IMG/VR virus record: IMGVR_UViG_3300036770_004723
Coordinates: 124,001-188,000 of that record
DNA length: 64,000 nucleotides
Strand: one strand, 5' to 3'
From: a virus
Below the pieces are notes generated by a model. The model searched no databases, had not been told where the DNA came from, and saw only the letters and a list, made by a program, of their open reading frames with translations. The position numbers and the translations under genes are program-made. Position 1 is the stretch's first letter; every line of letters begins with the position of its first letter. Positions 758-28,297 of this stretch are shown here, piece after piece.

Positions 758-979
758 ATGAAAGTACTAGTATCTTTAAGTAAAGGTAAGAAAGGCGGCG
801 GTAAAAAGAAAACAGGTCGAAGTCTGATGTTAAGTACGGTAATGCCACACTTAAGCGGCGAGAATGGAGATCAGCTTGTTGCTGCCGTTGAAAAACTAGA
901 AGGTGATAAAGTTGAGGCCATAATGGTACGAATTGGCAAGAAGTTACGTGAAGAACTTGAGTTAAAGCGTAAGAAGTAA
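758..979 (+). CDS. small basic protein (73 aa), unknown function
   Basis: I chose the ATG at 758 because GAGGT lies just upstream (749-753); the frame is open further upstream but that part overlaps the preceding gene. The product begins MKVLVSLSKGKKGGGKKK, a short strand followed by a Gly/Lys-rich basic loop, then two amphipathic helices and another basic tail (LKRKK). Such a composition suits nucleic-acid binding or virion-internal packing, but there is no family match by eye. Its N-terminus (MKxxVSxS) resembles those of the proteins at 61805, 62504 and 63115. It is the last gene before a strong terminator. Confidence 0.7.
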   Translation: MKVLVSLSKGKKGGGKKKTGRSLMLSTVMPHLSGENGDQLVAAVEKLEGDKVEAIMVRIGKKLREELELKRKK

Positions 980-995
980 TTTTAAATTCAAGTGT

Positions 996-1023
996 AAAAG
1001 GTGGCAAATTTGCCACCTTTTTT
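996..1023 (+). terminator. intrinsic terminator
   Basis: A perfect 7-bp stem (GGTGGCA / TGCCACC, loop AATT), extended by A/T pairs on both sides, is followed by six T residues. It lies 17 bases after the stop at 979 and marks the end of the first transcription unit. Confidence 0.9.
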
Positions 1024-1256
1024 ACGTCTAAATTTTGCCAATTTCAGCCTAAAATAAAAAACTTTTTAGCTTAAAAGCTCTTGACTGTGTTCCTATTATA
1101 GGTCAAAAAAGTCATTTTGAGCATTGAAGCGTGCAAAATGACTGGTTAAAAAATGAACAGCAATCGGCACATTAGTTTGACATAGCACAGAGCTGTCTCG
1201 TTGTATCAAAACGAAGTCCCGTTTTGTACCTTAAAAAGGGTCATAAATAATGGGTA

Positions 1257-1277
1257 CTGTAAATCACTCACTATAGG
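1257..1277 (+). promoter_or_regulatory. T7-type promoter core match
   Basis: Bases 1266-1277 (ACTCACTATAGG) equal positions -10 to +2 of the class III consensus of T7-like single-subunit RNA polymerases. The upstream AT-rich half (-17 to -11) matches poorly. No such polymerase gene is in the window. It may be a chance match or a relic. The 5' flank at 1255-1264 also contains ACTGTAAAT, like the motif at 4971 and 28313. Confidence 0.3.
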
Positions 1278-1614
1278 ACCTAATGTATCAATGGCTAAAT
1301 GTCTCCGACTATAAAAACCGTAGGTTTTAGGATGGACGTAACGAAGTGAAGTCCAGCCTGAATCAATGATTCTTACTTTTAAAAATTTCTCCAGACCCCG
1401 GCAGACAACAGACAAATAGTAAAAATTAAGGATCATTTATAATAAATTTAAACGGATACGGGTCTTAGTAAATTTATTTAATGCCATAGATCTGCCTGCG
1501 TTTTCTCTTGCAGGATCTTTTGATAGAAGTCTTTTCTCTGCGCTAGATAGCTCTAAAGAGCAAACAAGCAAAACCGATGATCTGTATAAAGATCTTTAGT
1601 AAAATAGATTTTAC

Positions 1615-1905
1615 TAGTTGTTTGCCGGGTGTTGGGGTTCCGGGGAAATATTCTATAATGTATTAAAGCTATTCGCTTCGCTCATAGCTACTAATGTGTT
1701 GCAAGCTAACGCTTGCACTTTTTCTTTTCTTTTCTTTTCTTTTCTTTTCTTTTCTTTTCTTTTCTTTTCTTTTCTTTTCTTTTGATCTTTAGTTGTTTGC
1801 CGGGTGTTGGGTCCTGGAGTAATTGTTTATTAATGTGTTTTAGGTTGTTTCGCTTCGCTACACAACCAAAACGGATTGCAAGCGTTAGCTTGCATCCTTT
1901 ATTAT
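1615..1905 (+). repeat. two diverged tandem copies of a ~175-bp hairpin-bearing unit
   Basis: A 22-nt segment beginning TAGTTGTTTGCCGGG occurs at 1615-1636 and again at 1790-1811, offset 175. Each copy is followed at the same distance by a hairpin with the loop TCGCTTCGCT but different arms: AGCTAT/ATAGCT near 1667-1689 and GGTTGT/ACAACC near 1842-1866. Each then has a second hairpin, GCAAGC/GCTTGC, with loop TAAC in copy 1 and GTTA in copy 2. Conserved loops with changed but still complementary arms indicate selection for RNA structure. Confidence 0.75.
1719..1783 (+). repeat. (TTTTC)n microsatellite, about 12-13 copies
   Basis: Twelve perfect TTTCT units fill 1721-1780, flanked by T residues, giving a 65-nt pure pyrimidine strand. 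It sits between the two copies of the hairpin-bearing unit. The repeat is likely to vary in length by slippage, and a mirror-symmetric polypyrimidine tract of this size can form intramolecular triplex. Confidence 0.95.
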
Positions 1906-1958
1906 CTAATAGATCCCTTTACAAATATTTGGGTTAATAGATCTTGATCAGATCCGGG

Positions 1959-2011
1959 GGCTGTGGCTCGACCCGCGCCCACAAAACCCGCGCCCGCGAC
2001 AGCGCACAGCC
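1959..2011. repeat. GC-rich hairpin with internal 10-bp direct repeat
   Basis: ACCCGCGCCC is repeated at 1971-1980 and 1986-1995. The block is enclosed by inverted arms GGCTGTG (1959-1965) and CACAGCC (2005-2011), with an inner TCG/CGA pair. Its composition is strikingly GC-rich against the AT-rich surroundings. Confidence 0.7.
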
Positions 2012-2129
2012 TCATTTCTATGACACACAGAACGCTGCCGTTCACTAATAAAACACTGCTTTTTGAAAATCTGAAGCTAACCACTGAAAACCTTACTGCG
2101 TATTAAGAGATTTACCGGAAGACCCTTTT

Positions 2130-14759: not shown

Positions 14760-14764
14760 TAGTA

Positions 14765-14793
14765 AAAAAGGCAGCCTTCGGGTTGCCTTTTTT
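14765..14793 (+). terminator. intrinsic terminator (tetraloop TTCG)
   Basis: The stem GGCAGCC / GGTTGCC, with one G-U pair and the very stable TTCG loop, is flanked by A and T runs. The same sequence occurs at 28269-28297. Confidence 0.92.
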
Positions 14794-28268: not shown

Positions 28269-28297
28269 AAAAAGGCAGCCTTCGGGTTGCCTTTTTT
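28269..28297 (+). terminator. intrinsic terminator, identical to the one at 14765
   Basis: A-run, GGCAGCC, TTCG, GGTTGCC, T-run: the same sequence as at 14765-14793, here separating the helicase unit from the polymerase unit. Confidence 0.92.

Follow-up and report, generated by a model that had tools for sequence, protein, structure and literature searches.

The question raised by this locus is whether a hairpin-bearing unit, present twice in one non-coding gap of a phage genome, is a selected structure and, if so, whether it acts as RNA or as DNA. The window analysed here, the whole stretch of 64,000 nucleotides, comprises positions 124001-188000 of a 286,584-bp IMG/VR virus record (the 286.6-kb contig). 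The source is a jumbo myovirus-type phage, with a DNA polymerase ~50-53% identical to its counterparts in Yoloswag, fHe-Yen9-02 and phage NCTB. The genome is ~92% coding, leaving 7.6% as non-coding DNA. Its main divergent strand switch is at 123.6 kb of the contig, and 1.3 kb past this switch, with clamp loader and polymerase genes nearby, lies a non-coding stretch of 1.15 kb (window 980-2129) that harbours both units and that we call the hub. The bin 1001-2000 has a GC content of 0.37 and a GC skew of about zero; it contains A+T-rich stretches and is not A+T-richer than the genome. The features of the region are collected in Table 1.

Table 1. Features in and around the non-coding hub (window positions).
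Feature	Position	Strand	Remark
Small conserved gene, 73 aa, KKKTGRS motif	758-979	+	directly precedes hub; 65% identical to G002 counterpart
Terminator-type hairpin closing upstream gene	996-1021	+	11-bp perfect stem, then T run
Candidate phage promoter motif ACTGTAAAT, start of long leader	1256-1264	+	motif enrichment in non-coding DNA
Module copy A (left arm): hairpin P2, hairpin P3, C-box E	1322-1432	+	68-76% identical to G002
Hairpin P2, stem 1330-1337/1351-1358, loop with ACGAAGTGAA	1330-1358	+	paired changes relative to G002
Hairpin P3, GAATC-AAT-GATTC	1360-1372	+	stem invariant in G001/G002
C-box E, CCCCGGCAGACAACAG, complementary to both heads	1396-1411	+	12-13 bp
Unit 1: inverted module copy (right arm) plus H3	1615-1718	+	R1 match 1605-1697, minus strand, E 0.0015
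Head 1, 22 nt	1615-1636	+	direct repeat
H2 of unit 1, AGCTAT/ATAGCT	1667-1689	+	minus-strand loop is GAGCGAAGCGA
H3 of unit 1, TGCAAGC-TAAC-GCTTGCA then CTTTTTC	1700-1717	+	terminator-like
(TTTTC)12.8 tract between units	1720-1783	+	64 nt of pure repeat
Unit 2: another inverted module copy, with H3	1790-1894	+	R1 match 1783-1874, minus strand, E 0.01
Head 2, 22 nt	1790-1811	+	direct repeat
H2 of unit 2, GGTTGT/ACAACC	1843-1867	+	folding, pair counts
H3 of unit 2, loop GTTA, opposite in orientation to that of unit 1	1877-1894	+	reverse complement of unit-1 H3
GC-rich stretch with hairpin ahead of next gene	1957-2014	+	z -1.8 only
First gene past leader, 272 aa	2130-2948	+	weak similarity to 144-aa syntenic G002 gene

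A sequence-only reading had described the two units as copies 175 bp apart with an identical 22-nt head, and the direct repeat 1615-1664/1790-1839, identical over its first 22 nt, bears this out. The 19-mer core TTGTTTGCCGGGTGTTGGG was found nowhere else in the window beyond the two units when up to three mismatches were allowed (expectation 0.00), GCCGGGTGTTGGG had no further site in the 286.6-kb contig with up to two mismatches, and the exact 19-mer of the head had no match in IMG/VR. The same reading held that the arms of the first hairpin (H2) had changed together around a common loop. This was confirmed: three of the six H2 pairs are altered on both sides between the units, none is broken, and each loop contains TCGCTTCGCT. 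Folding of the hairpin pair gave a z of -4.9 for unit 2 (0/200 shuffles) and -2.6 for unit 1, and the whole of unit 1 reached only -1.0. Another hairpin, H1 (CCGGG/CCTGG), was discarded as not conserved in relatives.

The second hairpins of the units (H3) are indeed mutual reverse complements, perfect over 18 nt, but their TAAC and GTTA loops do not serve as the covariation evidence for which they had been taken. H3 is absent from the two closest relatives, and the units differ by an exact flip of the loop. Because a single palindrome inversion is likelier than four independent substitutions, H3 provides no evidence of RNA covariation and is better read as a terminator-type palindrome whose loop flipped. 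In unit 1 its G+C-rich stem is followed by a T run (CTTTTTCTTT), as in an intrinsic terminator; the copy in unit 2 is weaker. Terminator-like sites numbered 6, against 1.1 expected, and both H3 hairpins are terminator-like on the plus strand. Elsewhere in the window, a terminator-type hairpin, AAAAAGGCAGCCTTCGGGTTGCCTTTTT, is present twice (14764-14793 and 28269-28296).

Three features had been overlooked by the sequence-only reading: the (TTTTC)12.8 tract, a promoter motif at 1257 and, upstream of the units, an inverted third copy. A covariance model (R1) was built from this upstream island, module A. R1 matched the reverse complement of both units (E values in Table 1) and of the single unit in the relatives G002 (E 1.7e-4) and G001 (E 3e-4), in each case over the full model length. 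It also matched weakly, again over its full length, a sense copy in the hub of a third relative, G003 (E 0.058). Since R1 matches the reverse complement of the units, a ~110-nt module forms an imperfect inverted repeat in the hub: the head corresponds to E, and H2 to P2, each in the opposite orientation. The units lie 290 nt downstream of module A and are inverted relative to it; the right arm is present twice in this phage, so that the module occurs once forward and twice reversed. Five module copies have in common the loop type GCGAAGYGAA (with small departures) and the box CCCRRCARACAAC, and their stems differ and remain paired. In the 286.6-kb contig GCGAAGYGAA has exactly two sites, both in the hub. 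An extra hairpin with ACGAAGT (CAAAACGAAGTCCCGTTTTG) is located at window 1207-1226, ahead of the promoter motif and outside the module.

In the P2 stem, three of eight pairs are altered on both sides between the window and G002, and one window pair is non-standard; a shuffle test, with two distinct sequences only, gave 68/500. The paired changes within the P2 and H2 stems do not depend on the inverted repeat and show that it is the hairpins that are maintained.

Protein-based scans yielded only G001 (319.5 kb) and G002 (214.5 kb) as close relatives, and no relative in bacterial genomes. A DNA pattern scan of IMG/VR returned, besides these two, three matches, all within coding genes. The polymerase of G001 and G002 is 69% identical to that of the window phage and the gene order around the hub is kept. 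Their hub occupies the same place; it has one unit, a T21-22 tract instead of (TTTTC)n and no H3, and a C-rich stretch likewise precedes the next gene. The product of the first gene past the leader in the window matched the 144-aa G002 protein at 28% over 76 aa (E 0.003, a single comparison). In a comparison of the window with G002, identity is highest at 1330-1429 (68-76%) and 1580-1679 (58-60%), against ~30-50% in neighbouring hub bins, and these conservation islands coincide with the two arms. Every relative examined, distant ones included, has a non-coding gap at the syntenic place. Both arms are present in only two independent lineages, and the E-head helix is not universal, since G003 shows a weak left-arm match only (E ~0.06).

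This pattern of conservation bears on the proposal that the hub is a hairpin-rich spacer without selected function, produced by slippage, template switching and inverted duplication, with palindrome correction yielding the paired changes. The flipped H3 palindrome absent from relatives would fit such an origin, as would the leaders of a further relative, G005, and of NCTB, which are filled with homopolymer or short-tract arrays and unrelated repeated hairpins. However, the peaks of identity fall on the arms, the loop and C-box are kept while the stems turn over, and the position of the gap is held across the family in a 92% coding genome. We therefore regard a functionless spacer as unlikely. 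Less credible still is an assembly artefact, in which metagenome assembly would have linked two strain versions of a single locus, units 1 and 2, via the TTTTC tract. The single unit in relatives, the 64-nt pure repeat tract and the origin of the contig as an IMG/VR record are compatible with it, but stems, lengths and H3 orientation set the units apart far more than strain variation would, and their flanks are not duplicated past a short GATCTTTAG stretch.

Two further observations were made on the relatives. The polymerase gene of G001 (L050 2593-3096) is split by a ~0.9-kb insert, which is probably a homing intron because an HNH-endonuclease-like ORF is encoded within it; Rfam found no intron at this insert. 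The insert is shorter in G002 and the window polymerase is intact. The ends of the G001 record (L024 end/L025 start) repeat ~127 bp inside the hub, beside the T21 tract, so that the record, despite being labelled 'linear' in IMG/VR, probably represents a circular genome opened at the hub.

The leader behind the putative promoter in the hub is long for this genome. The contig contains 50 copies of CTGTAAAT, 21 of them inside the 7.6% of non-coding DNA, with a clear AAA/TA context. From the copy at window 1257 the next gene start is 865 nt downstream, compared with a median leader of 43 nt (n=19 such promoters in the genome). ACTGTAAATA, found genome-wide (e.g. window 1256, 4971, 10674, 28313 and 31797) and usually 16-60 nt ahead of a start codon, is a strong candidate for the phage promoter motif. 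The CTGTAAA motif is present in the syntenic gaps of G001, G002, G003, G005 and NCTB, where the leader is ~370 nt or more, and near the gap end in the Yoloswag-type gaps read (JA11, G004, fHe-Yen9-02, G006 and G007). Judged by sequence and placement, the CTGTAAA-type motif would act as a promoter and the leader would be transcribed; its presence in front of the hairpin element suggests that the element is transcribed. The leaders of G005 (L080) and NCTB (L028) have their own unrelated repeated hairpins (AAAAGCGGTTCGG twice; TTCCCTTCCGGGATAT three times) and also contain A26 or A37 tracts.

If the leader is transcribed, the hub may function as a structured leader or a stable non-coding RNA, with the 865-nt transcript, or a ~450-nt form ending at the H3 of unit 1, acting as RNA. 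It would fold through the E-head helix and pairing of the P2 and H2 loops, and its action would be either in cis, on the gene that follows, or in trans; having a second head would make it a two-state switch. We consider this possible, short of probable. In its favour, the CTGTAAA motif precedes every module copy in three lineages, and the H3 of unit 1 resembles a terminator, with a T-rich tail behind it. In both lineages the complementarity of E to the head spans 12-13 pairs; it includes two double changes of the C-G/U-A type, and one G-U pair is kept in both. In an alignment of the window and G002 leaders, the E-head helix was the best co-conserved long-range helix; it scored 58, whereas the highest score among 1000 column shuffles was 44 (0/1000). 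Its predicted pairing probability was ~1.0 in G001 and G002; in the window it was 0.21 with head 1 and 0.55 with head 2. The loop of P2 is complementary to that of H2, with energies of -12 to -15 kcal/mol that 21, 0 and 7 of 2000 letter shuffles reached, and the plus-strand duplex was stronger than the minus-strand one in 3/3 comparisons.

Other results do not favour the plus strand. The 858-nt leader folds with a z of -3.2 and the opposite strand, equally strongly, with -3.6, so folding energy alone picks no strand. The hairpin loop is kept in both orientations, and a plus-strand RNA would thus show two different loops. The right-arm hairpin of G001 and G002 has a G-T wobble on the minus strand and a C-A mismatch on the plus strand. 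In addition, there was no match in Rfam. Paired helix changes across relatives, as a structured RNA leader should show, were seen in P2, H2 and E-head, in two lineages and between the arms of an inverted repeat. Since the arms are the same module inverted, complementarity between left and right is expected from ancestry, and since the units are inverted copies of the upstream module, the covariation fits a DNA-level inverted repeat as well as an RNA. We had at first assumed a simple long-range RNA helix with compensatory changes, a view that lost ground once the R1 matches turned out to be inverted module copies. Paired changes in the arms can reflect RNA pairing, conversion between inverted arms (concerted evolution) or a binding protein with an altered site, and any argument for one particular strand depends on a single pair or a few pairs.

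A DNA site for initiation of replication or for recombination is about as likely as an RNA leader. The inverted modules would bind a protein or open the strands, their hairpins would form on single-stranded or cruciform DNA, and the promoter would supply transcription through the site. Consistent with this, modules occur in both orientations, GCGAAGYGAA is confined to the hub, and the divergent switch at which the hub lies has clamp loader and polymerase genes close by. So too is the description of d(GCGAAGC) as an extraordinarily stable DNA mini-hairpin, at least as the work (Hirao 1994) is listed in PMC8599795. The conserved hub loop contains GCGAAGC or ACGAAGT, as in mini-hairpins of this type, which have GNA loops; the hub version differs in sitting inside a larger hairpin, and a strand-specific role for it is putative. 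GNA-loop heptamers (RCGNAGY), moreover, are absent from the hubs of several relatives, which counts against a DNA site, and no initiator or T4-type unwinding element was identified.

Enrichment of GATC and the presence of a D12-class adenine methylase in the window phage (G000:235250-235996) are also in keeping with a DNA site. The hub of G001/G002 (L023 3019-3891) has 15 GATC in ~870 bp, a density of ~17 per kb, whereas sampled DNA of these phages has 5 per kb. In the window leader, however, the enrichment is mild (10 in 858 bp against ~4.7 expected), and the GATC cluster was rejected as an oriC-like signature as not exceptional in this genome. GC skew changes sign near the divergent switch, yet it does so likewise at every strand switch of the genome; because it tracks gene orientation, it was rejected as an origin marker. 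Two other leads were dropped. A 35-nt blastn match over H2 to LIMEstone-type phages (E 0.03) was judged, in context, to be chance plus shared low-complexity TTCGCTTCGCTC, and a second place in the contig, at 265016, turned out to be coding DNA.

Comparison with known systems did not identify the hub with any of them. GOLLD and ROOL are phage-borne RNAs of several hundred nt with long-range pairings, kissing loops and no known function (PMC12286853). The hub element resembles them in being phage-borne, in its size and in its predicted long-range pairings and kissing loops. It differs in lacking an Rfam match, in lying past a promoter motif and not beside tRNA genes, in its inverted-repeat arms and in its far weaker support. 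At the gathering score the window had no match to any Rfam model, GOLLD and ROOL included, and a relaxed Rfam search of the hub and G002 gave neither ROOL nor GOLLD and nothing credible; as Rfam has no match, the hub structure is undescribed. The window has no tRNA gene; tRNA genes are found ~15 kb off on the other strand, which is not the location typical of GOLLD/ROOL, and the contig's other 1.1-kb gap (108.9-110.0 kb) holds tRNA genes. At the T4 R-loop origins oriF and oriG, a phage promoter reads into a special region downstream, and the transcript remains involved there (PMC3016281). The hub likewise has a promoter-like motif, ACTGTAAAT at 1256, reading into a special region. In contrast, oriF and oriG need only ~100 bp, a middle promoter and an A+T-rich unwinding element, and inverted hairpin modules are not described there. 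An R-loop is not specially favoured at the hub, since the leader tracts are pyrimidine in some phages and purine in others. Repetitive hairpin-forming elements are described in intergenic DNA of organelle genomes (PMC2800124), and the hub hairpins also lie in intergenic DNA; the hub module differs in being confined to one place per genome and in having a conserved box outside the hairpin.

On balance, we lean towards the hub being a cis-acting control region built as an imperfect inverted repeat, with control at the start of the replication-gene region as its most likely role. The ~110-nt module consists of a hairpin with the GCGAAGYGAA loop, an A+T-rich stretch and the C-rich box CCCRRCARACAAC, facing one inverted copy in relatives and two here, where the right arm was duplicated across the TTTTC tract. 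The promoter motif is placed so that it could direct transcription through the module region, and the module would work by folding. This reading draws on the R1 matches, the E-head helix, the complementary P2 and H2 loops, the paired stem changes, the conservation islands on the arms, the long leader, the syntenic gap in distant relatives and the closeness of the hub to the divergent switch. As a transcript, left-arm E, with the P2 loop, would pair with the right-arm head, with the H2 loop; with two heads competing for E in this phage, two alternative folds would result. If the DNA is single-stranded or cruciform, its hairpins would present GCGAAGC-type mini-hairpins on opposite strands. The earlier proposal of a selected structure is thus likely to be correct, given the paired stem changes between copies and phages, although the covariation offered for it also fits an inverted repeat in DNA. 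An undescribed phage RNA agrees with the lack of an Rfam match, the phage origin and the promoter motif in front, but the element is not simply a tandem RNA unit. A recombination or replication element, the other proposal, has become somewhat weightier in view of the inverted copies and of where the hub lies, with the RNA reading about equally likely.

These results illustrate a general trap: RNA pairing is not the only source of covariation between copies, since the arms of an inverted repeat can produce it too, and this comes to light only when both strands are searched. A specific fold-back switch, in which one left arm pairs with either of two right arms, each followed by a terminator-like hairpin, seems improbable on present evidence. 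If it were true, the choice of partner would set an early stop of transcription against a run into the replication genes, and duplication of the right arm would have turned a fixed fold into a two-state device. More broadly, the hub provides an addressable candidate control site for a widespread lineage of jumbo phages, the relatives of Yoloswag, Salmondvirus JA11 and NCTB.
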